A stretch of DNA of 64,000 nucleotides from Vicia villosa (Eukaryota; Streptophyta; Magnoliopsida; Fabales; Fabaceae), in contig NC_081183.1 of the NCBI RefSeq assembly GCF_029867415.1, positions 30,591,806-30,655,805 of the forward strand, written 5' to 3'. The first letter of the stretch is position 1; every line of letters starts with the position of its first letter. A program made the translations under genes and the position numbers. The notes under the pieces are model-generated. The model searched no databases. It saw nothing but the letters and a program-made list of their open reading frames with translations, and was not told where the DNA came from. Below are positions 24,760-63,481 of the stretch, one piece after another.

Positions 24760-24773
24760 GATGCCCCTATTTA
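24760..24773 (-). other. Ogre polypurine tract
   Basis: On the minus strand AAATAGGGGCATC lies directly before the 3' LTR start TGTCATACC. The related element C2 has AATAGGGGCAGC at the same place (54797-54810). Confidence 0.75.
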
Positions 24774-24982
24774 AGTTTCTTCAACCTGAGACATGAAGAT
24801 TGAAAATCTTCATTTTGATAGGGTGGAAGAGACTTAAATATCAGAAGACGCGAATTTTGGACCTAAGATACCAAAATTGCGAATGATGTAAGGATATCTT
24901 TACCAAGGGGATATCAAGAACTGACTCCACTGGGAACAAGAGATCGGGAAGGATGTCTCAATCCGCTTTAGGAAGAGAATCC

Positions 24983-25027
<45 letters not shown>

Positions 25028-26642
25028 GGAAAGCAAGTGTATGTTTCACAGGGGAATGATAGCTTTGTAAGAAAAGCTTACCTATCGACATTATCGACTA
25101 TCAGCATGGGGATAGACTTGTTTAATAATGCGAAGGTGAAAGGTATGAAACTGTATTACCGACTACCAGCATTGTGATAGACTTGACAAGGTAAAAAAGT
25201 TTCAAAGGTTCGGTTAATATTATCGACTATCAGCATTGGGATAGACATGTTTAATAATATAACCAGAACAAAAGGTTACCGACTACCAGCCTTGTGATAG
25301 TGGTTTTGAAGACACGATCAATTATCAGCCAAGTGATAAAATGATTCTGGAGACTTTGCTAGGGAAATTACTGGTTATTCAGCCTTGTGAACAGTAATAA
25401 GGCCCTGATTGTCGAATGGTCTTCATGATTGATTTCCTAGAGAGGAAAAATCTTTTGAAAGAGACATAAGCTGCTCAGATGATGAGGCTATTGCTTATTG
25501 TCTGTTTTTTTTTTTTTTTTTTTCACGACCCTATTTGAGGAATCGGAATTTGAATCTTTGGTAAAGACAGGGTTCTATCCAAGAATGAATTGGAAAGAGA
25601 CAGTCAAACAAGACTTTGTATCCATGAGGAATGAACTCAACGGGATTTTCTCCTTCGTTTTGAGAGGAGAAAACTAAAGCAACCTTCTTCCACGAAGAAT
25701 GATCTCAGTGGGGAACTGGAGAAAGAAAGATGTTCTTTCTGCTTATGGGTGACAATCTACTGGAGAGATGACACGCCCATACTTGTTTCTCTTCTTCTTC
25801 TTTTTTTTTTTTGGGAATAGATATATCCTGAACAAGCGATTATTGAAAAATGCAAGAATGCATAAATGATGTAAATATGTATGAATGATGAATGTCATGA
25901 ATGTAGCATGCATACTGACAATACTGACAGACAGAGGAGTATATACTGGAGAAGGACCGACGTCGCAATACAACCAGATACTTGGCAAATGTTTTTCAAC
26001 ACGTTGTAGATAGCACTGGTGATGAATGGTGCTGCATGTTTTAAACTTCTCTGGGGAAGATGAGCATCTCTTCTCATTGATACGGAAGAATCTTTTCACT
26101 GGAGATGGAAAATCTTCGTCAATGGGGATAGAAGACCTTCTTCACTGGGAATAGAAGAGCCTTTTCACTGGGGATAGAAGAGCTTCGTCCTATGGAGATA
26201 GCTGTTGATGTTCCTTCTGTTGTTCACAACTCAAAGGAAAGTTTCGCTTTTATTTTGAAAAAGTGAAGTAAATTCATTTAAAACTTTTTTTCTTTTTTTT
26301 TTCAAAAGTGAATAACACAATTAAAGCGTCATTTTGCAGGCTAAAAGAAATTAGAGATTGCAAACAAATGGGCACAAGGCTCAAATTTATTTAATAGGAT
26401 GGAAATCAGCTAAAGGCGTGATTCCATGGAGTATTTACAAAAGTTGGAAATGGTAATTATGCGGAAAAGGCTACATTGAAGGCAATAACCACTATTCCCC
26501 CTAACAACTTTGAGTTCCAACTGTGCTTGTTGCTTCAGATTGGCGATGATTTGATTGAAGATCCTTTGATGACGTACAGACTTTTCAGGTGACGAAGTAT
26601 GGACTGATGCAGTTACTTTGTCATAAATCCCTAATTTTTGCC
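24774..26642 (-). other. Ogre 3' non-coding region
   Basis: This is the 1.9 kb between the pol-proximal hairpins and the PPT, with no coding frame on either strand. From right to left it holds three to four CACTGGGGATAGAAG-like repeats at about 26050-26190, a long T tract at 24985-25026 with shorter ones at 25506-25522 and 25800-25812, and the covarying hairpin array at 25089-25397. A long 3' UTR is typical of Ogre. Confidence 0.7.
25089..25397 (-). repeat. Array of six two-tier hairpins with conserved octaloop and covarying stems
   Basis: On the plus strand, apical hairpins such as CTATC-AGCATTGG-GATAG, CTACC-AGCCTTGT-GATAG and TTATC-AGCCAAGT-GATAA recur. Most have 5-bp stems and all have about 8-nt loops starting AGC. 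CTACC/GATAG contains a G.U pair on the sense (minus) strand. Each apical hairpin is enclosed by its own lower stem: CATTAT/ATAATG, TTACC/GGTAA, TATTAT/ATAATA extended by GGTTA/TAACC, ATCA/TGAT, and TTACTG/CAGTAA. Different lower stems with preserved pairing are strong covariation evidence. The loop matches the LTR array at 37984-38187. The function is unknown. Confidence 0.72.
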
Positions 26643-26787
26643 TAGATTGCCCTTTCAGGTTTTCAATCTACCAGGATAAATTTTTCTGTTTATTGTCTCT
26701 AACTTTTGCCTGGACCGCCCTTTCGGGTTTTCAGTCCACCGAGACGCTCATTTTTGCCTAAGTCGCCCTTTGCGGGTTTTCAACTTA
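26643..26787 (-). repeat. Three covarying hairpins just downstream of pol
   Basis: Three units of about 60 bp lie between the pol stop and the 3' region. Their stems differ but remain paired: TAGATTG/CAATCTA (26643-26670), TGGAC/GTCCA (26711-26738) and TAAGT/ACTTA (26759-26787). On the sense (minus) strand each has an inner CCC/GGG stem capped by GAAA (CCCGAAAGGG), by CCTGAAAGGG, or by GCAAA. Each is followed by GGCAAAA on the sense strand (the first variant by GGCAAAAA). The first two are GNRA-type tetraloops. Confidence 0.7.
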
Positions 26788-26809
26788 CCGAGCTGTTCTT
26801 TTGTTCTTT

Positions 26810-29800
26810 TTAGACAAAGTATTTCTTGACTGCATCAGCATTGACAGGATGTGGGAGTTCATCACCATCCATGGTTGTAAGAATCATGGCGCCGCCAGAA
26901 AATGTTCTTTTGACAACATACGGGCCTTCGTAGTTAGGAGACCATTTGCCCCTAGAATCTGGTTGAAAAGACAAGATCTTTTTAAGCACGAGGTCGCCTT
27001 CTCGAAATTCACGAGGTCGAACCTTTTTGTTGATGGCTTGTTTCATCCTTGCTTGGTATAACTGTCCATGGCATAGAGCAGTCATACGTTTCTCTTCGAT
27101 TAAGTTCAACTGATCGTATCTGTTTTGACACCATTCAGCCTCTGATAACTTAGTTTCCATGAGGACTCTTATTGATGGGATTTCAACTTCTACGGGGAGC
27201 ACAGCTTCCATGCCGTATACCAAAGAAAAGGGAGTTGCCCCTGTTGAAGTACGGACTGAAGTACGGTACCCATGTAAAGCAAATGGTAGCATTTCATGCC
27301 AGTCTTTGTAAGTGACGACCATTTTCTGGACAATCTTCTTAATGTTCTTGTTGGCAGCTTCAACGGCGCCGTTCATTTTTGGTCTGTAAGGAGAAGAGTT
27401 ATGATGCTCAATCTTGAATTCCTCACACAATTCTTCCATCATTTTGTTGTTCAAGTTTGAACCATTATCGGTAATGATCTTGCTGGGAATACCATATCGA
27501 CAAATGATGTTGTTCTTGATAAACCTCACAACCACTTGTCTTGTAACATTGGCGTAAGATGCTGCTTCGACCCATTTGGTGAAGTAATCAATGGCTACCA
27601 GGATGAAACGATGACCGTTTGAAGCTTTCGGTTCGATCATTCCAATCATGTCGATACCCCACATGGAGAAAGGCCATGGAGATGAGAGAACGTTGAGTAG
27701 AGTCGGTGGCACATGGATCTTATCTGCATAGATCTGGCACTTGTGACATCTCTTCACGTGTTTGTAACAATCAGATTCCATTGTCAACCAATAGTATCCT
27801 GCTCTTAAGATCTTTTTGGACATTGCATGCCCGTTTGAATGAGTTCCAAAGGACCCTTCATGCACTTCATGCATTAACATGTCTGCTTCGTGCCTATCCA
27901 CACATCTGAGCAAAACCATGTCGAAGTTTCTTTTGTATAGCACATCTCCGTTCAGGAAAAAACTGCCAGAAAGCCTCCTTAGAGTTTTCTTATCTTTGTT
28001 TGATGCCCCAAGCGGGTATTCTTGAGTTTGAAGGAAGCGTTTGATGTCGTGAAACCACGGTTTATCATCGATGACTGCTTCAGTTGCAAATACATAGGCG
28101 GGCCTTTCAAGGCGCGTGATTCTGACTGTAGGCATATCATTCCAATGATTGACTTTGAACATGGAAGATAGAGTAGCCAAGGCGTCTGCCATTCGATTCT
28201 GATCTCGAGGTATATGATGCAATTCAACCTTGTTGAAGAAAGTCAACAGACGTCTTGCATAATCTCTGTAAGGAATCAAGCCAGGGTGGTAAGTTTCCCA
28301 TTTGTCTTTGATTTGGTTGATCACAAGGGCTGAATCTCCATATATGTCTAGGATTTTGATCCTTAAGTCAATGGCTTCTTCGAGACCCATGATACAAGCT
28401 TCATATTCTGCGATGTTGTTGGTGCAATCAAATAGCAATCTGGCGGAGAACGGGATATGAGTACCCTTGGGAGTGATGATGATTGCCCCAATTCCATTGC
28501 TAAAAGCGTTTACTGCTCCATCAAAAATTAGGCCCCATCTTGATCCAGGATCAGGACCTTCTTCAGGTAACGGTTCGTCACAATCTTTCATCTTCAAGTA
28601 CAAGACATCTTCATCAGGAAAGTCAAACTTGAGAGATTGATATTCATTGATTGGTTGATGCGCCAAATGATCGGCGAGAATGCTTCCTTTGACCGCTTTT
28701 TGAGCACGGTATTCAATGTCATATTCGGATAACAGCATTTGCCATCGGGCAATCCTTCCTGTTAAGGCAGGCTTTTCAAAGACGTACTTGATCGGATCCA
28801 TTTTGGAGATTAACCAAGTAGTATTGTTGATCATGTATTGGCGGAGACGTTTTGAAGCCCAAGCCAAAGCACAACATGTTTTTTCGAGCATGGAGTAACG
28901 AGACTCACAGTCTGTGAATTTCTTACTCAAGTAATAAATGGCATGCTCCTTCTTACCAGTTTCATCTTGCTGTCCAAGCATACAACCCATGGATTCTTCC
29001 AACACAGTAAGGTACATGATTAATGGTCTTCCTTCAACTGGAGGAATTAGTATTGGTGGTTCCAACAGGTATTCTTTGATGCTGTCGAACGCTTTCTGGC
29101 AATCTTCAGTCCATACAACCCCTTGATCTTTGCGGAGCAGCTTGAAAATTGGCCCACAAGTAGCAGTCATTTGAGAGATAAATCTGGAGATGTAATTCAA
29201 TCGTCCAAGAAATCCTCTTACTTGCTTTTCAGTTTTTGGTGCAGGCATCTCTTGAATAGCTCTGACTTTGTCGGGATCTACTTCAATACCTCTTTGGCTG
29301 ACAATGAAACCCAAGAGTTTTCCAGATCTAACCCCAAAAGTGCATTTGTTAGGATTCAAACGAAGCTGATATTTCCTTAGTCGTTGAAACAACTTCAAAA
29401 GGTATTCAATATGTTCTTCTTCTGTGCTGGACTTGGCTATCATGTCGTCCACATAAACTTCAATTTCTTTATGCATCATGTCATGAAAGAGAGTAGTCAT
29501 TGCCCTTTGGTAAGTTGCGCCTGCATTCTTTAATCCAAACGGCATCACTTTGTAGCAAAAGGTACCCCATGGGGTGATGAAAGATGTCTTCTCCATGTCT
29601 TCGGGAGCCATCTTGATCTGATTATAACCGGAGAACCCGTCCATGAAGGAAAAGACGTTGAACTTAGCGGTGTTATCAACCAGCATGTCGATATGTGGTA
29701 ATGGAAAGTCATCTTTTGGACTGGCTTTGTTCAAGTCACGGTAGTCAACACACATTCTGACTTTGCCATCTTTCTTCGGAACTGGCACTATGTTGGCCAA

Positions 29801-46269: not shown

Positions 46270-46849
46270 TGTAACACCCTTCTAAACCCCGCGGCAAATT
46301 TTAAACAATTATATCAGAGTAAAACATAAACACAAGGGTGCCACAATTATATAAAATAAATAAACCAATCATGGTCAAGTCATGCTTCATCAGGAAACGG
46401 TTCACCAAATCGTAATTATGTTTATCACAGTGGAATAAGAAACATTATCAAATACATCCAATGGAATCATAATCCAACACCAATAAAGTAGATTAATTTC
46501 ATAAAAACTCTATAACTATCGTCCCCCAGTGTTACAAATCAGAGCATGACCGACACGACCCAACATAAACGGATAAACTCTATGAGTCATCCTCACCAAG
46601 CACTAATGCCGCTACTCCTCAATCTAAAAATGACAACATGTAAGGGTGAGTCTCATTCTCAATTAGTAAATATTATGCAATCCATAAGCAACAAGCATCA
46701 TAATATACCGTTCACCCAATTATACATATTCAGATTCACATCCATTATTAATTCACACAATAATAGATTACAACACACACTACAGAAATCCATACAATCA
46801 TATTATGACAGAATGCATATGACACAACTGACACTATGCATGTGGTACC
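46270..46849 (-). repeat. Partial 5' LTR of the Tekay-type element
   Basis: It matches 15597-16175 with about seven differences, then is cut after GTGGTACC by the TGTTGCACCCC terminus of another LTR. Its remaining ~1.26 kb would lie outside the window. Confidence 0.92.
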
Positions 46850-47756
46850 TGTTGCACCCCAAAATTTGCCCTCTTTATTTGAGCTATAAGTTATTAATGA
46901 CGTTTATTTCATCATTCCAAAATTGAAGAAAAATAATAAAGAGTTTTCATGGGTTTAAGAAGAAAGGCGTGAAAAATGGTTTAAACGGTGGAAATACGAG
47001 AAAATTCGCAAGTCATATTTGGAAGGTGATATGAGCTAAGTTCTCGCGTAGCCCTGACTGTTTCGACGATATCTACAACTTTCGTGTTCGGCTCGGAAGC
47101 CAATTCTTTGAGGAAGGTCGTCAAATTTGCAAATTATTTGAGATTTCACAGTGAAAAATAGTGCTGAATGTAGGGTTTCGGACCTCGGAAAATTCATATC
47201 TCCTAATCCGCTCGTCGGATTTGCTTGGAAATTTAACTGGGGCTCCGTGCCATTATTACCAAGATTTCATATGTTTGGACCAAAGGCCAATTATGCGCTG
47301 AAAACTCCAAGCATTTTAAGGATCATCGCGTTGTTTCGGTAAAAAAGTGTGTTTCCGAGTATGTCGCGCCAGGTTCGAAAATTCATAACTTCTTCTATTT
47401 TTATCGTATGAAGTCCATTCCGGCGGCATTTTCTCAGAAATTTTGTTAGCTTCGATTCTTCGTCACACGTGCCAAGTCAGATTTTGAGTCGAAGATGGGG
47501 TTTTATCGGGTTCTTTGAGCGGTACTCACAAGATTCTGCACAGTCGCACCAGATGAATCGACGTTTCTCGTCATTCAAATGAGCGTATTTTCTTCATCGC
47601 ATATCGGATTGAGGTGATTCTTGCGGCGATGAGTCACAAATTTGGTCATCTTCACAATGGTATTGGTTTCATTCCGGAATTCAGAGCCGAACAGAGTTTC
47701 CTTAACAACGAGCCAAAATAAGACGCACCGAGGGCAATTTGGACATTTCGCGTTGA

Positions 47757-47768
47757 CAATATATAAAC
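47757..47768 (+). promoter_or_regulatory. TATA box of the C1 LTR
   Basis: CAATATATAAAC, followed about 30 bp downstream by a likely start region (TTCACAAATCAAGGGAG). It is at a typical U3 position, about 0.9 kb into the LTR. Confidence 0.55.
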
Positions 47769-48678
47769 ATTTTGCTCTTCACAAATCAAGGGAGAACTCT
47801 CATAACTTCAATCTCACCAAAAAGATCAAAAACACTTTCTCTCAATTCTCTCTCAATTTTCTTGGATCAAAACCACAAAAACTCACAAAAACTTCATCAA
47901 TTCAAGATCAAATCTCAAGAGCAAATGAAGATCAAAGCATAAATCAAGATCTTCTCCTCCGATTGAAGTGTCGCGCGTCTCTCTCCCTATCAAAGGATCT
48001 CACGCGCCACTCTCTCCCTCACATCTCTTGGATCTCGTTCGTGTTCACGTCGTGTTCGCGTTCGTGTTCATCCGATCTCATTCTCTTCATTCGATCCGGT
48101 AAATTCACTACAAACCTTGCTAGATCATTGATTTTGTTGCTTAATTCGACATTGATCATGATGATTTTTTATTGTGGATGATGGATCTATGATAATTGAT
48201 GATGATATTTGCTTGTTGATTGATTGATTTGTGTTGATCTTGATTATTTGATTGAATTTGAAATCTATCGTTGAATTGTTGATGATGCCACATGCATGTT
48301 GCTTATGATCCAAGAAATTGCATGCTAAGTGTTCGATGATTTGAATGTGTGAAGCATTTGTGCTTAATTTTGAGTTCTAGCATGTGATAATTGATTGTGG
48401 AATGATAATTCATGATGCCTACGCTAAATTGATGCCATTTGAGGTTTGATAACGATTACTCTTGATGATATAATCACAATGCTTACGATTCAATGCTTGC
48501 ATGCTAATTGTTCGATGGAATGTTTAATTTTGCTCTTAAAGACCAATCAATTTGCTGAATAATGTGTTTGCTCTTGACTCATAGCATTGCATGTTTGATA
48601 TTTGCTTGTATGCTGAACATTCATGAAGGATGGCATCATGTTTCCTTGCGAGAAAATTCAATTGTTGGCATTCGGCAT

Positions 48679-48905
48679 TGTTAGGTCGACCCAGGATGAG
48701 TTTAGGTCGACCTAAAACCTTCATTTTTGATCCTGGCGCTGTTAGGTCGACCCAGGATGAGTTTAGGTTGACCTAAAACCTTCATTTTCGATTCTGGCAC
48801 TGTTAGGTCGACCTAGGGTGAGTTTAGGTCGACTTGGAGCTGTTTCATTCGTTTCTGGACCTGTTAGGTCGACCTAGGTCGAAGGTAGGTCGACCTACTT
48901 TTGCT
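48679..48905 (+). repeat. 61-bp tandem repeat with TAGGTCGACCTA palindromes
   Basis: Units start at 48679, 48740, 48801 and 48862 (exactly 61 bp apart), each beginning TGTTAGGTCGAC and containing a second TTTAGGTCGACC-like box in mid-unit. The GTCGAC core is palindromic. It is not seen in the C2 LTR, so it is specific to this LTR subfamily. Confidence 0.8.
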
Positions 48906-50539
48906 TCCTTTGCTTCCTAACTTCAATCTTTCATATCTTTTGACTCGTAACTCCGATTTGCGCGTTCTTTATATCGTTGGAAAGCTTGTGAAACGTGCTA
49001 TCTTGTGAGATGATTGGCATTGATTGATTAGGGTTTATTCATCTTTGTTTTCCCCTTGACATTTTGTTGTTCATTTCATGCTTGCATTAGTTATTCATTT
49101 TCTCTTAGATTAGACTGTAGTAACGCAATTCCGATTGCGATGTTTTGTTATCTCTAACTTGTGTGCTAGTGTGCAAGGCTTTTGGATAGTCACCGGTCGA
49201 CGCTTGTTACGTGAGTGTTCCGCTCTATTCGCGGGACACGGTCTCATTCACTCGCATCGTGTTCTCATCTTGGAGAACACGTCTCTATTACTTTATATCT
49301 GCTTGTTTGGTTTGCTTGTTCCTATTGCAGGTGTATTGTGATTATGCTCGACGTGCATGTCGACCTTTGTTTGCTTTCATGGCTAATCGGTGTGCTGACT
49401 ATTTGCTTTTGCTTGGCTAGCTCGCCCGCGGGATCCTAGTTTCTTCGCTTTGCTTCACTTTAGTTTACGGATCATCATCCGTTTGGTATTGATCCCGTTT
49501 CATTTTATTCTTCTTGCACATTATCGCTTTCTCGCATCATCCTTTAACATGAGAAGTAGGACCTAGACATTCATCTGGCCAAGCCCTCAAAAGAGGCTCC
49601 GTTTTTGTTGGTGTGTTTACATTTGTGCTTTGCGGCAGGGAGTCACGGTGTAATAAGTCCTATATGGCACTCCGTTAAGTCCTCATGGAAGGCATGCGGA
49701 AAGGGTTAGCAATTAATCCCCGCCTAGTCTCATCGAGTCCGTTCAGTATGCACACGCTAAGCGTTGCTCGCTTCTGAACCTGCACAAGATCTTGTTATCG
49801 AGTGTGTCAGGAAAAGGGTTCATGTAGCCGGACCCCCGCCTTTCCTATAGCTCGCGTCGCTCGACGTTGATGCTCGGTGTACGCACGCACCGTTTTCCTT
49901 TATGATCTGTGACGGCTTGGTTGCTGAGAGGGGTCCGCCCTCTTGTCTATGGCCCGATCATTTTCGCGAGGTCTAATGCTTGGTTGAATTGGGTTGAGCT
50001 GCTCCCCTTGGCTATGGCGGGACCGCTTTTCTACCATTCGGTCAGTACCGTTGGTTTTGTTTGCTTTACGAGTGGATGTTCGTTTGTGTGCTTCCCTCTC
50101 CTTCGTAGGTTGCTAGTTTAGTTAGACTTGTACCCTTTGTATGATAACATTAGGTAGCAAGCTTTCCCCCTTAGCTTAGGCTTTTCTCATGCATTCTTTA
50201 AAACACAAACCACACTCTTTGATTTTCTTTTCTTAAGAGCTTGTTATTTCCGCTCCATTCCCAGCATAAGTCTCCAAAGGTCGAGCAGCGGAGTGTGAAT
50301 GTAACTCGTTCACCTAAAAAATACAAAACAAACAGAAATTAGTTAGCCGAGCTACGGTACCTCTGATTCTGCAAAACAGATACGTAGGCAGCGGGGTAGG
50401 GCCCGTGCGAGCACAATCCTTTCTTTTCCCTACATTCTGCATTCATTTTAGTTCAGATTAGCGCATCTTGCTTACACACCCATAGGTTTAGACATAAGCG
50501 TGGATACCATCGAGTACGATGGGCGCGAGGGGTGCTAAC

Positions 50540-53500
50540 TGTCGCTACCGCGAAAATTAATAGAGTCGCCACTAACATATTTATCCTGAAAAGGAAGGGA
50601 ATGCCAGCAAACCACAAAACAAAACGACGGTCTCACGACCAGAGAAAAAGGGTAAGGGAGTCGGTTACGCGAGGGGAAGGTGTTAGCACCCCACGCGCCC
50701 ATCGTACTCGATGGTATCCACGCCTGCGTCTAGATCTATGGGTGTGTAACAAATCTACGCTAATCTGGACTAAGATGAATGCAGAATGTAGGGAAAAGAA
50801 ATAATTGTGCTCGCACGGGCCCTACCCCGCTGCCTACGTATCTGTTTTGCAGAATCAGAGCTACTGTAGCTCGGCTAACTAGTTTCTGTTTGTTTTGTGT
50901 TTTTTAGGTGAACAAGTTACATTCACACTCCGCTGCTCGACCTTTGGAGGCTTACGCTTGGGAATGGAGCGGAAATAACAAGCTCTTAAGAAAAGAAAAT
51001 CAAAGAGTGTGGTTTGTGTTTTAAAGAATGCATGAGGAAAACCTAAGCTAAGGGGGAAAGCTTTCTACCTAATGTTATCATACAAAGGGTACAAGTCTAA
51101 GCTAAGCTAACAACCTACGAGAAAAAGGGGAAGCATACAATAATATCACACAAACGAGCATCCGCTCGTAAAGCAAACAAACCAACGGTACTGACCGAAT
51201 GGTAGAAAAGCGGTCCCGCCATAGCCAAGGGGAGCAGCTCAACCCAAGTCAACCAAGCATTAGACCTCGCGAAAATGATCGGGCCATAGACAAGAGGGCG
51301 GTCCCCTCTCAGCAACCAAGCCGTCACGGATCGTAAAGGAAAACGGTGCGTGCGTACACCGAGCATCAACGTCGAGCGACGCGAGCTATAGGAAAGGCGG
51401 GGGTCCGGCTGCATGAACCCTTTTCCTGACATACTCGATAACAAGATCTTGTGCAGGTTCAGAAGCGAGCAACGCGTAGCGTGCGCATACTGAACAGACT
51501 CGATGAGACTAGGCGGGGGTTGATTGCTAACCCTTTCCGCATGCCTTCCATGAGGACTTAACGTTGTGCCATATAGGACTTATTACACCGTGACTCCCTG
51601 CCGCAAAGCACAAATATAAACACACCAACAAAAACAGAGCCTCTTTCGAGGGCTTGGCCAGATGCATGTCTAGGTCCTACTTCTCATGTTAAAGGATGAT
51701 GCGAGAAAGCGATAAAAGGGACAAGGAGACGATACCGAACGGATAGCAAATCCGCAATGAGCTAGCAAGCGTAAGCAGAGAAGTCCGGAATACTTCGTGT
51801 AAGCCAACATCAAGCAAAGTCGGAAAGCATCGTCGTGAAAAGCAATCACGAGCGACATGTGGTACGCGTCGAACATAACCACGCAAGCAACCTGCAAGAG
51901 AAACACAAGCCAGACAATACAGGAATATACATCTCAATGAATGAGAGATCAAATGAATCGATCGGAAATACGTTCGTGTCCCACAAATAAAGTGGAACAC
52001 GGTGCAAATCAAGTCGCATCGGAAGCGAATTCGTGTCTCACAAATAAAGTGGAACACGAAGCAATCAAATCACAATCGAACCCTCTCAAAGTACCTCGCA
52101 CATCTCAGCAAACAAATCAGTAATAACAAGGAGACACGCACCCGCCACAAAAAATAATAGAAGTTAAATTCTAAGTAAATTCTAAAACAAAATCTAACAA
52201 GATTAAATTGTTTTTATGACATTTTTATCTAAAAATAAACGAACAAAACTATGTACAAAACAATTAAAGTCTAACAAGCAAAACATTACATGTTTTTATT
52301 ATTTCCTTTTATCAATGTGAGAAATCTAATCAAACGTCATATTTTTTATAGCATTTTATCAAAGAATTAAAACTAAGCAATATAGCAAAACATTTAAATT
52401 CTAACAAGAGAACATATTACATGTTTTTTTATTATCTCCTTTTATCAAGTAAAAGTCTAACAAACGTAATTGTTTTTATATTCTTTTATCATGCAAAAGT
52501 AGGAAAAGAAACTAGAAGGGAAATCTAAATTCTAATACAAAATTGAAGTGACACAGGGGGTTTAAAATTGACATTTGGTGTGCATAGCAGTTCTGGGCGC
52601 AGGGCCCCAATCAATGGCCCAAGGATATGTTTTTGTTGTCACAGTTTTTTTGGCACAAGTGAAAGCAGAGTTGGGCTACATGGGGGGTGCAGCAATCAAT
52701 TTCGGTACAGGCCCAAAGTTATTTTCTAGATTTTCTAAGTCCAAGTTTGATCCAAATTCAGATTATTATTAATTCAATTAATCACAATTAAGTCCAATTA
52801 ATCTCCCCTAATGACAATTTAATTCTACTTAATACAGTAATCAAGAGAGTTAAACCAAATTAAAATGGGAAGAGATTAGGGTTACATGAAGAGTGGCTAT
52901 TAGCCTTCTGAAACTCAATTTCCTCTCCCTTACGGCCGCGGCGGCGCGACGCATCTCTCTTCTCCGATCAGAGCTTCCGTTCGCCGCCCTTAGCAACCAA
53001 TCACATCATCTCATCGTCCTCTCATTCGTTCTCACCTCTCATATCTCATCTCTCTCACGGTCTCAGCATATTTCTCTCTCGATATCTCTATCGGACGACG
53101 ACGGAGAAATTGTACCAAAGAACCTTCACCAAATTTCTCAAATATACATGCTTCCTCTACTAATTGTAATGGATTCAATCATAGTCCTCTTCACATCTCT
53201 GAATCTCCTTCTCCTATTCTTTTGATTTGCAATTTCGAACACGTTACGACGCGGTTGTTGTTTTTGCGATGCAGAGGAGATTGAAGAGAAGCGATGAAGT
53301 TTGTTGAAGACGATGATTGATGAAGGTTGAGACTCGGTTCCACATAAATGAAGAAGAGTATTGAATTTTCAGATTAAAGAGTGAAGATGAATCGATGAAG
53401 ATCAGTGAAGATTGAAGGTTGCCATGTCCTGGTGATTCGGTGATGATATGAGATGAAGATGAAGGTTTGAGAATCGATGAAGGTTTATTGATGGAGAGAA

Positions 53501-54796
53501 GTTTGTTACACTGCGATTTCGTTTTTTTTCTTCTGTCACGATTTTCTTTTTTTCTGTTACAGGTTTTGTTTATGGAGAAGAGCGGTTGAAGATTGAAGAA
53601 GATAGAGATTTTTCTGTTGAAAGTTTGTTACGATCGATGATGAAGATTGAAGCGATGGTGAGTCCATGGAGATTCTGAGGTGAAGAACCGATGGAGTCAT
53701 TAGTGAATGATGAAGATGATTGGAGAGAGTTTAGAGAAGATGAAGAAGCGTCAATGGAGGGAGAGTTGGTTCTGAGAAAAAGGTTTGTTACGGTTCTCTT
53801 TTTTCTGTTCACGATTTCTCCTCCTTCCTCCTTCTGTTATGCTCTGATTCTGTTATGTATCTTCTTTCGATTCTTTGGCTGATTTTTGTTGTTAATTCTC
53901 AATCTGAACCGGGTTTTTTCTTTTGGTTCTGTGTTGAAAGCGCAGAATTGAACCGATGCCGTTTTCTTGATTCGAAGTCGCAGGGAACTTTATTGAAGGA
54001 TTTGTTCTTTGGGTCGGTTTAATTTGAAGTGCAGCAAGGTTTTTAAACTTGATGCGCAAGTTCGGTTCTTTTTGGATGCAGGGGCGGTTTTGGGTGGCTG
54101 CAGTTTTGAATTCACAGCTGATGAAATTAGGATAGAGTCACCTTGGTGTTAGAATCCTTTTGTGTAACTTTAATTTTTGTAATCTTTTTTCATCAGAATG
54201 AAACTATAATTTGGGCTTTTTGGAGGACTTGTTGGAATGTATGGATTGTTTGAATATATGGACTTTGTGTACTTGGACTTTTGTAATTGATATGGTTGTT
54301 TTGAATGAAATATGGATATTTGGATGAATTTAAATGATGAACTTGGACATGTAGAAATTGGCTTTTTGTATCTTTAAATGGACATTAAAGTTCTTGAACC
54401 ATAATCTTGAACCTGAGCCAAATGGTTTTACACCTCGACTTTAAATGAATGATATTCGAATCAACACTTGCATGGATACTCTTTTAGTGAATAAACTTCA
54501 ATCTGTTTGCAAACTTCAATGGAGCTCTAATTCGATTCAATTCATCAATCTAACTCAACCTTGGACGATAAGCCTCTAATAAAATGAAAGTATAAAGGCG
54601 CCTTGAACAAAATGTCCTCCTCAAGCTCATAATCTTGCAATGACTTTTTCTTTTACAATCCGCCTCACATCCCTCTTGACTTAACAGTCTCACGACAATA
54701 GAAACTCTTTAATTTTTTCTTAATTTTTGAGAGACGAAATAAACGTCTTTCATAACTTATAGCATCGAGAAAGAGGGCAAATTTTGGGGTGCAACA
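50540..54796 (-). repeat. C2 3' LTR (4257 bp)
   Basis: On the plus strand it starts TGTCGCTACCGCG and ends TTTGGGGTGCAACA. It matches 61441-63481 almost exactly. The GA-rich stretch at 53270-53760 and the frame at 52893-53225 show no protein similarity I recognise. Confidence 0.88.
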
Positions 54797-54810
54797 GCTG
54801 CCCCTATTCA
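54797..54810 (-). other. C2 polypurine tract
   Basis: Minus-strand AATAGGGGCAGC directly precedes the 3' LTR, homologous to the Ogre PPT. Confidence 0.7.
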
Positions 54811-55052
54811 AACTTCTTGAACCTGACGAGTGAGAAACGAAAGTTTCGAACCGTTGAGGTGGAAGGAGATTGAATACCAGAATGAACTCGAAAATTTGCG
54901 CTCTTGATCAATAGAAGATTCCGTCTTGTAACAAGAAGGAATGTACCATCCCGCAAGCAGGGAGAAAAAACTTCAATTGATCTAGATAATAAATATGCTC
55001 CAACTTGTGATAAGAAGGAACGGGCACCCACAGGCAGGGGAAACACTTCAAA

Positions 55053-55678
55053 TGATCTGGTTATCAAGAGAAGGAACATCTCGACTGATCTGGGCATCAG
55101 GCGTAGCAGATGTCTCCGAACTTGCATCGGGATAGATGTCTTAAGTCGATCTGGGAATCGAAGGAGATACATCGGTTGAATCGGACATCAACGGGTAATA
55201 GGTATCTCTGATCTGGGAATCATGATCTGGGAATCTGGGCAGACATCTCTTCTGATGCAATTAAATCATCAGGTAGATATTCCTACTAATCTGGGAATTA
55301 GCGGCTAGCTCCTTCGTAAGATCACGGGGATCCGGAGGCGGTTCCTTCAACTGAACTAGAAATCAGGATAGGAACAATATCTCTTCCGAACTGTGTACGC
55401 CGGGGAAAGAATGCCTTTAAACTGATCTGGACATGATGCCAGAAAATAAGTAGGACAATCTTCATCTGAAAGACAAAGTCGATCAGGCAGACATCTCCAT
55501 CTGATCTAATGATATCAGTGGCTTGCTCCTTCGTAAGATCTTGGGAGATCCGGAGGCGGTCCCTTCAACCGATCTGAATATCAAGAATAAGGACAAATAT
55601 CTCATCCGAACTGTGTGCGCCGGGAACGGAATGTCTTCAACGGATAAATTGACAATCCTCTTCTGATCTCAATATCAG
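55053..55678 (-). repeat. Array of about a dozen hexaloop hairpins with covarying stems
   Basis: On the plus strand, units of the form stem-CTGGGA-stem recur: TGAT-CTGGTT-ATCA (55053), CTGAT-CTGGGC-ATCAG (55085), TCGAT-CTGGGA-ATCGA (55146), TGAT-CTGGGA-ATCA (55209), CTAAT-CTGGGA-ATTAG (55286), CTGAT-CTCAAT-ATCAG (55663), plus weaker or longer-loop copies at 55175 (GTTGA/TCAAC), 55252 (CTGATG/CATCAG), 55351 and 55501. Stems change while pairing is kept. It occupies the same place, upstream of the PPT, as the Ogre octaloop array. Confidence 0.72.
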
Positions 55679-55699
55679 GATAACGCCTGTAATGATTAG

Positions 55700-58020
55700 G
55701 CGAACATTGCTCTCTAGGGAGCATTTGAATCTAGATAACTTTCCTGCAGAAAGAAACAGATATGATATGATTTATGCATGATGCATGTATGAATGTATAC
55801 GGAATAGTGTTCCCAAGAAGGAAGACGCTACACGCTTTTGAGAATGCTATGCAAATGATGCATGATTCGGACGCTGCTTAGGAGAACAACGGAGGAGCAC
55901 AGAATTGCTGAAGAAGTCCTTGAGAGAGTATAGAACTCTGCGGGGAGGACAAGGCGAGTGACTATGGGTCACAAACTACGAGCTGGCAAAGATGGATCAG
56001 ATATCTGCTGGAGATGATCAAATCTGGACGCGAGCTCTGTTTGGGGAATAAATCCTGCTTGGGGATACCCGGGCAACTTCATTGGAGAAGCAAAATCTCG
56101 ACACCCTGGGGATGTGAAGATAACGGCAAGTAATAGAAACAACTCTGATGGGGAGTTACCAAGTTGCTTGTGTATAACGCATTCCACTGGGGAAACCCTT
56201 GAAGGAAACAGATTCTGCTGAGGATGCAAGTGAACCTCTGGTGAGGAAAGACTCAGTGGAGAAGATGAATACTTCTCCATAATGGTCCACTGAAAAGATA
56301 AGAAATCCGCTGGGGATAAGGAACTTGGCATAAGAACCTCTCGTTAAGACAACTCCACTGGGGAATAAGATGACTCTCTTGGGGAGAACAGGTCAATATG
56401 TTGGGGAGAGAAACGCTCTACTGGGGAGAACGAGGAACTCGGACAAGGAACCTCATTAAGAGCTTGTTGGGGAATCAGATACCATTCAATCATGATTCAA
56501 CTGGGGAGAAGACATTCTACCGGGGAATAAGACTTCTGAAGCACGAAAATTTCATTGAGATGTGCTTTGCTGAGGAGATGAGAATCTTGGAACAAAGAAA
56601 ACCTCGATTGGATGCACTCAGCTGGGGAATGAGAATCTCTCACTTGGCTAGATCTGCCAACGCGCTGACATGATGCACTCAAAAGGATGTACCCACAATG
56701 GGCAAATGCAAGAGCAAACAGATTATCAGACATCTGAGCTTGAAATTTTCCAAACAAGCAACGGATTCATGAATTGAGAAGCAAGCAGTGATTAGAACAC
56801 CAAACAAGTATCGGGCGGAGTATCAAACAAGCATTGGTTCTCCAAGAGAATGCCACTGGGAAGTGGGCTTAAGGAGTCAAGCAAGTGTTGACTTCAAAAG
56901 GACCAAATAGGCATTGGCTTTCATAGTGTTTGCATGTTCGTATTGATTGTAAAAATGCCAACAAGTATTGGACTTTCAGCTTCTCACTGCTGAGGATGAC
57001 GACCCTGACGGTTCTCAAGTTCATAAGTTGTTTAGCTCACACTTGAACTTAAAACTGAACACCTCCTGATGAGGAGAGAATGCCAATGCATAGTGTCTTG
57101 CCCCAGCCTGTAAGGACATTGAAGAGATTCGTCTCGTAAGGACCTTTTGAGATTTGTGCTATCATAGCCAAATTTGCCTTAGTATCATGAATTTTGGAAC
57201 CATGCCCCTGCTTGACTAGCGTTGTAGGTAGCTTCAGCTACGCTTGGGGGAATGCCCCTGATTACTCAACACTTTGAGAGATTCTTTGAATCTTGACCTA
57301 ATTGCTTCAGATTGACTGAAAACCTGCTTCGCAGAGTATTCAAATGCTTTTGCGCCCCTGAGGGTGATCGAACTTTGAGATATTGCTGCCTCTGCTCAAC
57401 GGAGTTCGGAAGACAACTTGTCCTTCGGGAGGATACAACTTTTCATCAGAAGTTCATGATGGAAACTTTCTTGATGTTAAGCACTTGTTCATATGCAAAG
57501 AATGTTTATTATGAGAAATATAATTCTAATGCAAAGAGTATGTTTGTCTTGAAGTTTAAAGAAACTTTTTGAAAGGATGTCGTAACATCGAGTTTTTTTG
57601 TGAAAGAAAGAAAAGATGGTGTGATACCAACCCAAGCGTTTAGCGGATCTCCTAGGAGTCAGCTTACCGTATTCTCGTGTATAGTCTGCTTTCGAATTAA
57701 CCCATGCTTCAGTTAGGACTTTTCAGGGTTGTAACGTGGTCAGGTTCACGGTTTTAGAAAAAAGGATTTTTAGGCTCAAATTATTTGGTTCCCACCCCCT
57801 TCGTGATGTTCTCCAGTCCTAAGTTCAGTTAACTCGATGTGAGCATTCATCTTTCAAGAGGAATTTGAGATGATTGAGGAGTCAATGAGGTCTTCTGGAT
57901 ATGGCAGTCACTTTACCTTTCGTTTTTGGTGTCTGATCACACGACTTTGTTCTTTTGATGAGGATTCTTATTTTGTAATCCTTGTTTGCTTTGCTTTTCT
58001 TTTTTTCGTTTCCCTAACTT
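55700..58020 (-). other. C2 internal non-coding region, CTGGGGA-rich part
   Basis: From about 55930 to 56650 the plus strand has about twenty ACTGGGGA/GCTGGGGA motifs at irregular spacing, the counterpart of the shorter CACTGGGGATAG series in Ogre. From 56700 to 58020 no repeats or coding frames stand out. Confidence 0.6.
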
Positions 58021-58025
58021 TTGCC

Positions 58026-58113
58026 TGGACAAATTCTTTTGAATTTTGATTTGGATGTCCAGCGGGATGCCCTAACTTTTGCCTAAGTCACATGCTTTCA
58101 AGTTGTCGACTTA
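58026..58113 (-). repeat. Two covarying hairpins equivalent to the post-pol hairpins of Ogre
   Basis: TGGAC/GTCCA (58026-58061) encloses an inner AAATTC-TTTT-GAATTT hairpin. TAAGTC/GACTTA (58084-58113) follows. Each is preceded by TAACTTTTGCC on the plus strand, the same flank as in Ogre. Outer stems match two of the three Ogre units, while the interior differs completely. Confidence 0.65.
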
Positions 58114-60903
58114 GCAGGCTTTACTTCTTTCTTTTTTCTTTTCTTTTTGATTCATTCTTTTTTTGAACAAGTCGTATGATCATGAATATCTGACTTGTTG
58201 GAAGTTCATAGTGACTGCCTAAGTCTTTGATTGATGAGAAATTACCATTTTGGTATTGATGTCTCGACCTCCTGATGTGAGGGATAATCATGATGTCTCA
58301 ACCTCTTGAAGTGAGAGATAACCGTTGTAGATTTAATTTTCCTCAATCTTTTGAAAGATAACCATTATTGTATCTTTAGATGTGTGCTCCTGATGAATTT
58401 TGAATGCTCAATCAGGTTAACTGAATACTACCCGCCCCTGGGGTTAAAAATAAGGGTTTTTATAGAGAAAAGAAACTCCTACTTCGAAGGCTCAAAGGGG
58501 TTAACGAGGGTTTCACTCCCTTATATCTCCAGTGTTTGGGAATTTGAAACAATGCCTGTACATCATCAACAGGGTTCTACTCAAAAGCATACCATTTGAG
58601 GTTCTTGGTATCATGTTCATCATTCTCCCTTTGGAGTTATCATGCTTTGTTAACAAGAGTTACGTATCACAAAAAACCATATAAAAACATATATGAGCAA
58701 AAGCGAATGGATTTTTTCAAGACAAACATATCCAATGCATTATGATATAGTTCAAAACAAACAAGTTTTGCATGCAACCGTATTGAACAAAGCAAGAAAG
58801 CTTAAACATGAACATGCATGATGATTTAAGAATTGCCAATGTTGAGGAGATCTTCTCCGTATTGCCTTATTGCTTCAAAAGATCCGCTAAGTCAAAGAAG
58901 AACTTCAATTCTGGCCTTCAAGTGCGAATATGATAGCCTTTGAATCAATCAGGTCTTGAATCTTGTTTTTGAATGTGTGACAACCTTCACTCAGATAACC
59001 AAGTGCGGCATAGTGAAAAACACACCAAGTGTTGCATATGTTCAGGTAGAACACTTTAGATCACTTCCTGGAAGAAGATTTCGGCAAATTCATACAGAAG
59101 TTGCAAGTGTCTAGCTTTTAGGGATTCGAGCAATGCAAATGGTGCAATGCTCAAGATAGACAGTGTCTTGCTTATCCCTCGTGCGGGAGCCCCAAAATAG
59201 CGACTAGAGTTTGTGAATGCTTTAGGGATTTGAGCTGCCAATGATGCGAACTCAAGAACACGGAGTCTTGCTTATCCCTCGGTCGGGAGCCCTAAATATA
59301 GCTGCTGAAATAGAAAACACCATCATGAATGGAGGAAACTTGTATTACTATCAGCAAACAACAATAACCTCTGCGCTTGGCCACCAAAGTCATTACTTGG
59401 AACACACAACAGTTGTTGGGAAGGAAGCCTCTAGCAGTACAAGTTGCAAGTGATTCTCATGAGTTACCTCCTCAAGGAAGACCAACATTCTACTTGCAGT
59501 AGATGAAATGAGATTGACCAGTAGAAACCATTATGAATGAACTCAAACCTCTCAGCATCGAGCAAGTTCTGAACTCTTTGTACTACAACACCTTGTAAGG
59601 CTTGACATTATGATCAGGTGCCCCAGAATGGAAAACACCGAGTATCGTCATCGAAATCAGGAGAGCTATCTGTGGTGAGAAACACCTAAAGCAACGAATC
59701 TTAACCGATTGAAATTCCATCAAACAGGAAAGCAACTGAACACCAGGCATGGAGATTACATCAACTTGCTTCTTACTCTTTCCGTCTCTGTTAACAAGCA
59801 AAGGTTACTGAAAAGGACACTCCAAGAGGAGGAGGTAACTCAGGATGTGAAGCAGAACCTTGAGAATGAGAGGCGTCTCTGTAGAACACTTCTGATTATA
59901 GTCTGGCAGAAAATTCTAGCGAAGTCACACGGAATTTGTAATGCTTTAGGGATTCGAGCAATGCGAATGGTGCAATGCTCAAGATAGACAATGTCTTGCT
60001 TATCCCTCGTTCGGGAGCCCCAAGCAACTTCAAAGACTTGCAAATATTAACATCACGACCAGGTGCCCCAGAATGGAACTCACACCTAGTGTCATCGTCA
60101 TTAAGCAAAGAATATGTAGACATCCCCATAGTACGGAGCTTAACCAGTTGCAAATAAAGCAAGCATGGAAGCAAATGAGCATAAGACATGAAAATCATAT
60201 AGACTTGTCTTTCGGTCCTCTTTTGTCAAGAACATACCCCTTGAATTCCTGAGAGAAAGGAGATTAGCTGCTAACGAGGAGCTTCTGATACCGCAAGGTT
60301 GTGGAAGAGATCTACAAAGTTCTCCTCGAGTTTTTCTTACTAAGAGTCCTTGAGCATGGGTCATAACTTGCATGTCTTCATAAACAACCCCAACTGAGCT
60401 TTCACCTTGGCAAACTCCCCATAAAGTTGTTCCATGACTAATCTTTGAACATACAATAAGAACAAGTCAAGTCTCTGAGTCTGGTGAGAGAATACCAAGT
60501 CTGAATAAGAGATCCTCGACTCTGAACACCTGTTATGCATGAGATGTATGAGATGCATGATATGCGTGCAATGCCATGTTCATTCAATTTCCAAGGAATC
60601 CTCGTGTTTTGATTTTTAGCAAACAAGAGGTGGAAAAGCTCGGCACGAGGCTTAAAGTTATGATTCCTTGGAAATGAAAGGAACATGTATGCTACTTATT
60701 TTTTGTACATCATTTTTTGGAAAGTAAATATGCAATGATGCAAGGTGGTGGGACTTTGGATGTCTCCCATCGAACATGTCTAGATTTCCTCAAAGTTACA
60801 CGACCCAGGTTCAAAGGTTCGACACCAATTCGGAACTCCCCGTAGATCACGGGACACAATCAATAGAAACAGAACCATGGTCACCATCACATGAACAAAA
60901 CCA
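58114..60903 (-). other. C2 internal region with diverged repeated modules
   Basis: Three copies of a module containing TTTAGGGATTCGAGCAATGC and GTCTTGCTTATCCCTCG (then CGGGAGCCCC) lie at about 59117-59195, 59219-59300 and 59943-60025. GGTGCCCCAGAATGGAA occurs at about 59616 and 60061. Short ORFs over these modules are repeat artefacts. No gag, protease, RT or integrase motif is seen. Confidence 0.6.
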
Positions 60904-60995
60904 CTCGAACAAGAACCAAAGTAACCCTCGAACACGAACAACAGTAACCCTCGAACAAGAACAACGGTAACTCTCGACCAAGAACCAAAGTCACC
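60904..60995 (-). repeat. 23-bp tandem repeat, four units
   Basis: Units start at 60904, 60927, 60950 and 60973 with core CTCGAACAAGAAC.A.GTAACC. The array lies about 450 bp inside the 5' LTR end, in the RNA leader of C2. Confidence 0.8.
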
Positions 60996-61420
60996 ATCAA
61001 TGTACCTGTTAAGCAATGATTGATTCCCGCCCCACTCACGGGTAAATCTAGGCCAAGGTAGGTCAAAAAGCCAACAGAAGATCGAATGTAGGCGCTATCA
61101 TACGATATTGCCTCATTCCACCAAGCTCTGCCCGTGGATACGTGATCAGATCAATCAGGCATACGCCTTCTGTCCATCACGGCCACTCTAGTCCTAGTTC
61201 CTGTGGTATCACTCATAGCCTGGGTATTGAGCCTCTTACCTCTTGAAACACCCACCCACAGATAGAAATCCAGACAGTCCAGAATATGATGCAGAAAAGT
61301 AAAAGCGCACATAGAATGCAATGCAAATAGGTAAATATGCAAAGCAATAAAACACCCAAAGATAAACACACAAGCGCTAGGATCGACTCGCTGAGTCCGG
61401 ACCAGCAACAGGTCGAGACG

Positions 61421-61438
61421 TCCCCAGCAGAGTTGCCA
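61421..61438 (-). other. C2 primer-binding site (tRNA-Arg type)
   Basis: Minus-strand TGGCAACTCTGCTGGGGA begins two bases after the 5' LTR end. It is similar to the Ogre PBS. Confidence 0.75.
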
Positions 61439-61440
61439 GC

Positions 61441-63481
61441 TGTCGCTACCGCGAAAATTAACAGAGTCGCCACTAACATATTTATCCTGAAAAGGAAGGG
61501 AATGCCAGCAAACCACAAAACAAAACGACGGTCTCACGACCAGAGAAAAAGGGTAAGGGAGTCGGTTACGCGAGGGGAAGGTGTTAGCACCCCACGCGCC
61601 CATCGTACTCGATGGTATCCACGCCTGCGTCTAGATCTATGGGTGTGTAACAAATCTACGCTAATCTGGACTAAGATGAATGCAGAATGTAGGGAAAAGA
61701 AATAATTGTGCTCGCACGGGCCCTACCCCGCTGCCTACGTATCTGTTTTGCAGAATCAGAGCTACCGTAGCTCGGCTAACTAGTTTCTGTTTGTTTTGTG
61801 TTTTTTAGGTGAACAAGTTACATTCACACTCCGCTGCTCGACCTTTGGAGGCTTACGCTTGGGAATGGAGCGGAAATAACAAGCTCTTAAGAAAAGAAAA
61901 TCAAAGAGTGTGGTTTGTGTTTTAAAGAATGCATGAGGAAAACCTAAGCTAAGGGGGAAAGCTTGCTACCTAATGTTATCATACAAAGGGTACAAGTCTA
62001 AGCTAAGCTAACAACCTACGAGAAAAAGGGGAAGCATACAATAATATCACACAAACGAGCATCCGCTCGTAAAGCAAACAAACTAACGGTACTGACCGAA
62101 TGGTAGAAAAGCGGTCCCGCCATAGCCAAGGGGAGCAGCTCAACCCAAGTCAACCAAGCATTAGACCTCGCGAAAATGATCGGGCCATAGACAAGAGGGC
62201 GGTCCCCTCTCAGCAACCAAGCCGTCACGGATCGTAAAGGAAAACGGTGCGTGCGTACACCGAGCATCAATGTCGAGCGACGCGAGCTATAGGAAAGGCG
62301 GGGGTCCGGCTGCATGAACCCTTTTCCTGACATACTCGATAACAAGATCTTGTGCAGGTTCAGAAGCGAGCAACGCGTAGCGTGCGCATACTGAACAGAC
62401 TCGATGAGACTAGGCGGGGGTTGATTGCTAACCCTTTCCGCATGCCTTCCATGAGGACTTAACGGAGTGCCATATAGGACTTATTACACCGTGACTCCCT
62501 GCCGCAAAGCACAAATATAAACACACCAACAAAAACAGAGCCTCTTTCGAGGGCTTGGCCAGATGCATGTCTAGGTCCTACTTCTCATGTTAAAGGATGA
62601 TGCGAGAAAGCGATAAAAGGGACAAGGAGACGATACCGAACGGATAGCAAATCCGCAATGAGCTAGCAAGCGTAAGCAGAGAAGTCCGGAATACTTCGTG
62701 TAAGCCAACATCAAGCAAAGTCGGAAAGCATCGTCGTGAAAAGCAATCACGAGCGACATGTGGTACGCGTCGAACATAACCACGCAAGCAACCTGCAAGA
62801 GAAACACAAGCCAGACAATACAGGAATATACATCTCAATGAATGAGAGATCAAATGAATCGATCGGAAATACGTTCGTGTCCCACAAATAAAGTGGAACA
62901 CGGTGCAAATCAAGTTGCATCGGAAGGGAATTCGTGTCTCACAAATAAAGTGGAACACGAAGCAATCAAATCACAATCGAACCCTCTCAAAGTACCTCGC
63001 ACATCTCAGCAAACAAATCAGTAATAACAAGGAGACACGCACCCGCCACAAAAAATAATAGAAGTTAAATTCTAAGTAAATTCTAAAACAAAATCTAACA
63101 AGATTAAATTGTTTTTATGACATTTTTATCTAAAAATAAACGAACAAAACTATGTACAAAACAATTAAAGTCTAACAAGCAAAACATTACATTTTTTATT
63201 ATTTCCTTTTATCAATGCGAGAAATCTAATCAAACGTCATATTTTTTATAGCATTTTATCAAAGAATTAAAACTAAGCAATATAGCAAAATATTTAAATT
63301 CTAACAAGAGAACATATTACATGTTTTTTTATTATCTCCTTTTATCAAGTAAAAGTCTAACAAACGTAATTGTTTTTATATTCTTTTATCATGCAAAAGT
63401 AGGAAAAGAAACTAGAAGGGAAATCTAAATTCTAATACAAAATTGAAGTGACACAGGGGGTTTAAAATTGACATTTGGTGT
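61441..63481 (-). repeat. C2 5' LTR, partial (cut by D)
   Basis: It aligns with 50540-52580 with about a dozen substitutions and indels, then is interrupted at TTTGGTGT by another LTR terminus. The remaining ~2.2 kb are outside the window. Confidence 0.88.

Follow-up and report, generated by a model that had tools for sequence, protein, structure and literature searches.

Rows of small hairpins before the PPT of a non-coding Ogre-type retrotransposon and its relatives: binding sites or mutational by-products?

Introduction

To our knowledge, it is an open question how plant retrotransposons that code for no proteins recruit the proteins of other elements. The locus reviewed here raises this question in a concrete form. 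It is a stretch of 64 kb of plant DNA (the window), dominated by an Ogre element on the minus strand and by a second element, C2. Degenerate tandem repeats, many of them with a short palindrome, lie between the internal region of C2 and its PPT. An initial annotation described them as hairpins with a loop of their own family and suggested a recognition code, for example one in which each loop is read by a cognate protein. Here, we ask what these hairpins represent. The C2 array is one case of recurrent rows of hairpins before the PPT in Ogre-type 3'UTRs, here mainly of non-coding elements.

The C2 element and its surroundings

C2 has the ends of an Ogre/Tat LTR retrotransposon, with LTRs, a PBS after the 5' LTR and a PPT before the 3' LTR. 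The following features define the two elements:

37360-42616 and 19503-24759, minus strand: LTRs of Ogre, 99.8% identical to each other
50540..54796, minus strand: 3' LTR of C2, start TGTTGCACCCC, end CGGTAGCGACA
54797..54808, minus strand: PPT of C2, AATAGGGGCAGC, directly before the 3' LTR, read from sequence
61418..61438, minus strand: PBS of C2, sequence TGGCAACTCTGCTGGGGACGT
61441..63480, minus strand: part of the C2 5' LTR matching the 3' LTR (99.3% identity), cut at about 63480 by another related LTR

The C2 PBS, TGGCAACTCTGCTGGGGACG, starts at 61438 on the minus strand and, as TGGCAACTCTGCTGGGGA, is close to that of the window's Ogre (TGGCGACTTCACTGGGGA); the primer of Ogre is tRNA-Arg according to PMC2206039. 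Nucleotide similarity between C2 and Ogre is short (144 nt at 69%, E 1.6e-10; 86 nt at 70% at the PPT and LTR start). The internal region of C2 measures 6.6 kb, with a longest open frame of 127 aa, and a tblastn search of it with the window's Ogre proteins gave no match at 1e-3 and a single one, of 22 aa, at 0.006. The window's Ogre has the pol domains RVT_1, RT_RNaseH, RVT_3 (second RNase H) and rve (integrase), whereas C2 is without pol (RT, RH, aRH, INT). Because these domains are absent, C2 is called a non-autonomous relative by its ends only.

C2 lies within a related plus-strand LTR of opposite orientation (about 46850-50539), in which positions 48679-48894 hold 61-nt tandem repeats, some units with the perfect palindrome GGTCGACC. 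A third related LTR (63481-64000) interrupts the 5' LTR of C2 itself, a picture of nested insertions of related elements. Direct repeats of 580 bp (98.8%) at 15597-16176 and 46270-46849 flank the nested Ogre and are perhaps the LTRs of an older element, and an open frame of 1070 codons (42548-45760) extends into the Ogre LTR.

Rfam returned zero families at E<=1 over 50500-61500, and ARAGORN with bacterial settings found zero tRNA in the analysis of C2; on these grounds the array was rejected as a known RNA family or tRNA. A pattern search of viral contigs gave 0 matches. A search for Ogre pol gave none in viral contigs and one in the contig collection, on the bacterial contig L001, which was set aside.

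The hairpin array of C2

The array of the initial annotation is located on the minus strand upstream of the PPT (54808-54797), as had been stated, at a distance of about 250-870 nt, and all five stems then named exist (the first five hairpins below):

55053..55678, minus strand: array of degenerate units of about 31 nt (a length read by eye), many containing a short palindrome with a stem of 4-6 and a loop of 5-9
55085..55100: hairpin CTGAT-CTGGGC-ATCAG (plus-strand reading)
55146..55161: hairpin TCGAT-CTGGGA-ATCGA
55175..55192: hairpin GTTGA-ATCGGACA-TCAAC, loop of 8 nt
55209..55222: hairpin TGAT-CTGGGA-ATCA
55286..55301: hairpin CTAAT-CTGGGA-ATTAG
55663..55678: hairpin CTGAT-CTCAAT-ATCAG
55263..55417: first copy of an internal duplication, at a spacing of about 212-220 nt, 79% to the second copy
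55475..55637: second copy, in which CTAAT/ATTAG of the first is CTGAT/ATCAG
54801..56400, minus strand: stretch of the C2 3'UTR enriched in hairpins relative to shuffles

The claim of about a dozen CTGGGA-type loops was too high, since exact CTGGGA occurs four times, three of them on stems of 4-5 bp. Other loops are CTGGTT, CTGGGC, CTCAAT, ACTTGCA, ATCGGACA and CTAATGAT, and the core that the loops have in common on the coding strand is CCCA(G). TRF reports a single row in the array, of 14 nt and 1.9 copies.

With a stem of at least 4 and a loop of 6 nt, the array holds 9 hairpins against a shuffle mean of 2.2, a number reached by 0/1000 shuffles; with a stem of at least 5 and a loop of 4-9, there are 9 against 3.7 (reached by 16/1000). 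The excess falls at loop lengths of 6, 7 and 8 nt (9, 7 and 8 hairpins against about 2 each) and concerns perfect stems (12 against 4.4), not stems with G.U (5 against 6.7). Raw counts are equalled elsewhere in the 64 kb (stem of at least 4, loop 6: 10 at 58401 and 9 at several places), and those for stems of at least 5 reach 24 in an AT-rich 6.5 kb of the window; only the shuffle-corrected scan singles the region out. Among its 317 scanning windows, the top six, which overlap, start at 54801, 55001, 55201, 55401, 55601 and 55801 (z 4.3-6.0; next best 3.6). The array is real but had been drawn too narrowly. Folding of the whole C2 region is modest, with z -1.9 for the coding strand and -0.1 for the other (20 shuffles each).

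Covariation between units and variation between copies

The initial annotation had also called the substitutions in the arms compensatory. For units chosen by their loop alone, this is borne out when CTGGGA is allowed at most one mismatch (n=11; 31/55 flank pairs against 17.9 permuted, p=0.0002), but not for the four exact CTGGGA units (17/20, p=0.12). A related test uses the loop core. The coding strand of 54798-57000 has 24 usable CCCA sites against 3 on the other strand, and their flanks are more complementary than permuted ones (z 3.9, 1/2000). The same test gave z 1.3 in the Ogre 3'UTR (n=12) and 1.2 and -0.7 in the rest of the window (n=78 and n=120), and among eight control 4-mers (n>=4) a single one, GATG, was also positive (2/500). 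Taken copy by copy, at most 25/500 permutations sufficed in 39/40 rows (median z 3.1), the copies being related to one another. The sole failure, L008 (121/500), is no clean negative because it is untrimmed at its LTR; the rows L033 and L039 are also without LTR start.

The 2.03-Gb genome gave at least 71 matches to the array, with 40 of 1217 candidates scored. The comparison of copies covers 40 rows, that is the window and 39 copies, onto which only pieces at least 85% identical were projected. Beyond 55645, a median of 3/40 rows align at this level, so the content of the array differs between copies. Twenty hairpins were set on the majority bases, and a variant was counted as shared when present in at least two rows. 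Such variants affect 17/180 sites in stems, 27/135 in loops and 84/455 in spacers. They are thus rarer in stems than in the remaining sites (17/180 against 111/590, p=0.0028), and 4/769 shifted masks gave a value as low. Singletons, which are taken to be mostly post-insertion, are spread evenly (stem 24/180 against 89/590 elsewhere, p=0.63). For the nine hairpins with a stem of at least 5 alone, the avoidance was not significant (11/92, p=0.23). As shared variants avoid stems and singletons do not, filtering or rewriting of stems seems to take place during transposition. Loops seem not to undergo it; they are not conserved between copies when loop and spacer sites are compared, and CTGGGA as the defining loop of C2 was rejected since loops vary within the family.

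Hairpin rows in other Ogre-type families

Based on both Ogre and C2, a PPT-LTR pattern with up to 3 mismatches occurs at 32767 or more places of the genome (at least 16383 and 16384 on the two strands, figures that probably reflect an upper limit on counting), and its reversed control gave 0 matches. The 3'UTRs compared here are those of the first 30 loci listed on contig C1 and of the window's two elements, which is not a random sample. These 32 3'UTRs form nine clusters, and both their sequence and their length vary from family to family and from copy to copy. According to TRF, tandem repeats also precede the PPT in the other eight clusters, with 53 arrays in the 32 3'UTRs against 4 in 30 LTR stretches. 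Hairpins with the same loop are repeated at least four times in 13/32 3'UTRs and 0/30 LTR stretches, but the latter hold so few arrays that they are not a matched control, and the contrast is partly one of tandem repeats. Hairpin z is 13.5 for L043, 7.5-10.4 for L066/L067/L069, 5.6 for C2 and -1.3 to 4.3 for the others. A hairpin better than shuffles at p<=0.05 was found in only 5/53 TRF units, which is near chance, and the idea that individual tandem units are marked by a hairpin was therefore rejected.

Several families have hairpins whose arms covary beyond permutation, with values that overstate independence because repeat units and copies are related. L066 carries 36 hairpins of the type TCAAC-CCAGA-GTTGA, together with TCAAT/ATTGA, and in L069 TCGAC/GTCGA occurs; the arms around CCAGA covary in both (0/5000 each). 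The hairpins of L043 are GCCT/ACCT/GCAT-ATTCAC-AGGC/AGGT/ATGC, and the arms around ATYCAY covary (0/5000); a second L043 array (loop TTCTCG..) gave 708/5000 with one placement of the loop boundaries and 3/5000 with another. Ogre has 3-6 loop-picked units per locus, not all pairing well, and the arms of its 17 distinct units covary (0/3000). L055 has hairpins of CATCCAA or CATCCGA-AGCCTGTTA-TTGGATG or TCGGATG, with arms that do not covary beyond chance (631/3000). In clusters 1, 4, 6 and 7, loop-sharing covarying hairpins were not seen; clusters 1, 6 and 7 contain a single type of stem or a small number of units, and in cluster 4 the hairpin z is -1.3 to -0.2.

In L047 and L056, stems of 7 bp enclose the loop ACATTA, and the 30 units include 24 distinct stems. 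The arms of all 30 loop-picked units covary (0/3000). An alignment of 28 of them (22 distinct; left out are the L047 units at -1106 and -205, outside the array) has 92.2% of cells paired against 84.0 shuffled, double-sided changes in 16 cells against 5.3, and a score of 0.475 against 0.303, each reached by 0/500 shuffles. The two measures least inflated by relatedness are not significant: doubly changed pairs number 5 against 3.1 (reached by 37/500), and additional pair types 12 against 10.8 (reached by 116/500). Four of the five doubly changed pairs also show a G.U state and one shows C.A; series of pair states with intermediates are UA/UG/CG, AU/GU/GC and GC/GU/AU. The ratio of G.U to A.C is 28:11 in the 30 units and 22:9 in the 24 distinct ones, compared with 37:19 for permuted arms; elsewhere there is little or no such bias (L066/L067/L069 3:5, L043 1:3, L055 2:1, Ogre 5:3). 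A G.U bias as proof of RNA action was rejected in view of the permuted ratio and of its absence from C2. As coding-strand RNA, 300 nt taken from the ACATTA array fold at z -4.1, against -1.2 for the other strand. The CCAGA array L066:1721-2020 folds strongly only as antisense (z -4.1 against +0.5), its units pairing with each other.

When the units of the CCAGA, ACATTA and ATTCAC arrays are picked by stem, the mean frequency of the major base is 0.92-0.98 in the loop and 0.49-0.67 in the flanks, the latter being low partly because spacing varies. Arrays with family-specific loops, as the initial annotation foresaw, are supported by covarying CCAGA, ATYCAY, ACATTA and Ogre units, but not by L055, and only under one loop cut by the second L043 array. 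A survey of related families, which it had proposed, finds such hairpins in C2, in the CCAGA, ATTCAC and ACATTA families and, in a short array, in Ogre, but not in L055 or clusters 1, 4, 6 and 7. Loops are conserved within the CCAGA, ACATTA and ATTCAC arrays, but not between the copies of C2.

The internal regions of six non-Ogre elements from five clusters (L066, L051, L048, L043, L047 and C2) are non-coding; in that of L048, a single match to an Ogre ORF covers about 30 residues. On contig C1, L066/L067, L051/L052, L048/L049 and L043 are non-coding Ogre-type elements that seemingly stand head to tail with an LTR in common. The PPT-to-PPT spacing is 7.6-8.6 kb for the three pairs, and a second PBS lies behind the L043 3' LTR. 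This layout looks as if it came from LTR-LTR recombination or array growth.

CCCAG repeats and the PBS

Part of the enriched stretch and the sequence beyond it contain a further set of repeats, which have a counterpart in Ogre:

56041..56640, minus strand: TCCCCAG repeats, 7 on the coding strand and 0 on the other, partly complementary to the C2 PBS
24760..26815, minus strand: Ogre 3'UTR for comparison, with a short CTATC-NCNATGCT-GATAG array at about 25090-25310 and CCCCAGT repeats at 26085-26181

Some TCCCCAG repeats form hairpins, including TTCC-CCAGT-GGAA and ATCC-CCAGC-GGAT, and TCCCCAG is on the coding strand in 37/40 C2 rows and on the other strand in 0/40. The ratio of coding to other strand for CCCAG is 13:0 in C2 and 4:0 in the Ogre 3'UTR. 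The earlier view that the C2 loop is unrelated to Ogre accordingly holds for the Ogre hairpin loops seen here, which are ACNATGCT-like and differ, but not for the CCCAG motif.

At a score of at least 9, the Ogre 3'UTR has 6 matches to the complement of its own PBS (reached by 0/808 control 21-mers and 1/958 20-mers) and the C2 3'UTR has 5 (reached by 0/292 and 0/418 controls); sense PBS matches number 0 in both, with 2 in Ogre at a score of at least 8. At this lower score, the Ogre 3'UTR has 7 matches to its own PBS and 0 to that of C2, and the C2 3'UTR 8 to its own and 6 to that of Ogre. All five C2 matches at 9 or above lie at 55945-56628, outside 55053-55678; the PBS-complementary repeats on the coding strand span 55945-56628 in C2 and 24934-26174 in Ogre. 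Five other elements have nearly the same PBS as C2 and Ogre, yet none has a match at 9 or above; at 8 or above, L066, L043 and L047 have 0, L051 has 1 and L048 has 3, a number reached by 17/176 controls. Because it is clear in C2 and Ogre and absent or weak in these five, PBS complementarity was rejected as the general meaning of the arrays.

What the hairpin rows may represent

Arms that change together in several families suggest, without proving it, that pairing itself matters. A tentative explanation, possible if short of probable, is that the rows are multivalent sites for a factor acting in trans, by which coding-less RNA would be packaged and mobilised. In the genomic RNA, the hairpins would act by avidity as many weak parallel sites. 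The candidate partner would most likely come from an autonomous Ogre, as its Gag/nucleocapsid, or from the host, as an RNA-binding protein, and its binding would allow RNA without coding capacity to be packaged and mobilised in trans. What a family keeps would be the hairpin, in some cases with its loop as well as its stem, while spacers drift and copy number changes. This reading was adopted on account of the small hairpins with interchangeable arms, drifting flanks, family loops and non-coding hosts. For it speak the palindrome excess, the covariation of units, the avoidance of stems by shared variants and several loops proper to their families, as well as the folding excess of the ACATTA coding strand, hairpins that are kept better than their flanks and the non-coding hosts. 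Against it stand the relatedness-robust ACATTA measures (37/500 and 116/500), the lack of a G.U excess, the strand-inverted folding of L066, the failure of L055, the value for stems of at least 5 (p=0.23) and the TRF units near chance; moreover, the loops differ from those of Ogre in the same genome, so that a single shared Ogre Gag that reads loops fits badly. A narrower version, in which a private array of up to about 40 family-loop RNA hairpins under pairing selection serves as an address label for a putative cognate factor in trans, is unlikely. If true, it would mean that the parasite families of one genome use different, or differently tuned, packaging machinery.

A mutational by-product is as likely as multivalent binding. 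RT strand transfer would rapidly turn over Tat/Ogre 3'UTR repeats without any function, RT pausing or switching at palindromes, multiplying hairpin units and rewriting one arm from the other. Tandem repeats are indeed widespread here, TRF finding 53 arrays in the 32 3'UTRs against 4 in 30 LTR stretches, and are described at this place for Tat/Ogre (PMC7004042), and template switching has been proposed to create and maintain hairpins (PMC8794818). The near-perfect stems without G.U excess in C2, L066/L069 and L043 and the content differing between copies beyond 55645 agree with it, and rewriting of an arm in each round would also explain why shared variants, not singletons, avoid stems. It accounts less well for hairpins that are kept while the flanks of the same units drift, for the intermediate ACATTA pair states, which are expected from single-base steps, and for the coding-strand folding excess of that array. 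The strand-inverted folding of L066 fits neither this neutral template switching nor multivalent binding well. It would agree with a role or bias at the level of DNA, be it through sites of dyad symmetry bound by a dimeric protein or through satellite-like repeats prone to form cruciforms, as would the almost purely Watson-Crick stems of C2, L066/L069 and L043 and the known turning of Ogre 3'UTR repeats into satellites (PMC7004042). However, a dimer site would conserve its half-sites, whereas the arms of C2 and ACATTA vary with pairing kept, and the ACATTA array folds in a strand-dependent way, which leaves the DNA explanation highly improbable. Nearly the same holds for pairing between the RNA ends or mimicry of the primer tRNA, which we regard as quite improbable. 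Repeats with CCCAG, being complementary to the PBS and similar to the primer tRNA at its 3' end, would join the ends of the long RNA, or hold or mimic the tRNA. The matches beyond controls in Ogre and C2, the Ogre repeats that follow the Ogre PBS variant (7 against 0) and the strand bias of TCCCCAG argue for it; its absence at 9 or above from five elements with a similar PBS, the C2 repeats that match the Ogre PBS almost as well (6 against 8) and the position of the C2 matches outside 55053-55678 argue against it. Least likely of all, and very improbable, is that the hairpins arose by chance in ordinary tandem repeats, spread through duplication and have no meaning. This would suit TRF units that rarely beat shuffles (5/53), the lack of covariation in L055, equally high raw counts in other parts of the window and the ACATTA measures without significance, but not the top rank of the C2 stretch after shuffle correction, the permutation results for C2, CCAGA, ACATTA, ATTCAC and Ogre units, or the contrast of stems and singletons among the C2 copies.

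Comparison with known systems

The 3'UTR tandem repeats of Tat/Ogre elements are hypervariable (Macas et al. 2009, cited in PMC7004042). Like those of C2, they lie downstream of the coding region and before the 3' LTR, and their sequence and length vary between elements, including non-autonomous ones (PMC7004042). Unlike the repeats as that paper describes them, the arrays here have hairpins, covarying stems and family-specific loops; the terms 'hairpin', 'palindrom', 'dyad' and 'inverted repeat' have 0 occurrences in the main text of PMC7004042. A literature search, with Macas et al. 2009 outside it, found no mention of hairpins or covariation in Tat/Ogre 3'UTR repeats. The tandem repeats at this place in Tat/Ogre are thus established, and the hairpin aspect of the arrays was not found in print. 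Retand elements likewise carry tandem arrays in the same region in about half of the elements, some of them non-autonomous, but they are not Ogre, and the sections of PMC11963269 consulted focus on antisense TRP28 ORFs with no hairpin mentioned. In CYC5/CYC3 of Ty1 and the bipartite PBS of Ty3, RNA of the 3' end pairs with the neighbourhood of the PBS or with the primer tRNA (PMC4974528), and C2 and Ogre similarly have a 3' stretch complementary to the PBS region. Those systems have one or two sites and not an array, and PBS complementarity was found here in 2/7 elements tested.

Arrays of hairpins that bind coat protein or serve packaging occur in RNA phages. They resemble the rows described here in that many small hairpins keep a loop and have interchangeable stem pairs. 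The phage hairpins have their coat protein, whereas the plant arrays belong to a different kind of element and have only candidate partners. The rows at a PPT-LTR junction with at least 32767 genome places (up to 3 mismatches) would be a concrete, testable candidate signal for recruiting the proteins of other elements, and they might account for the hypervariable tandem repeats of these 3'UTRs, which also seed satellite DNA.
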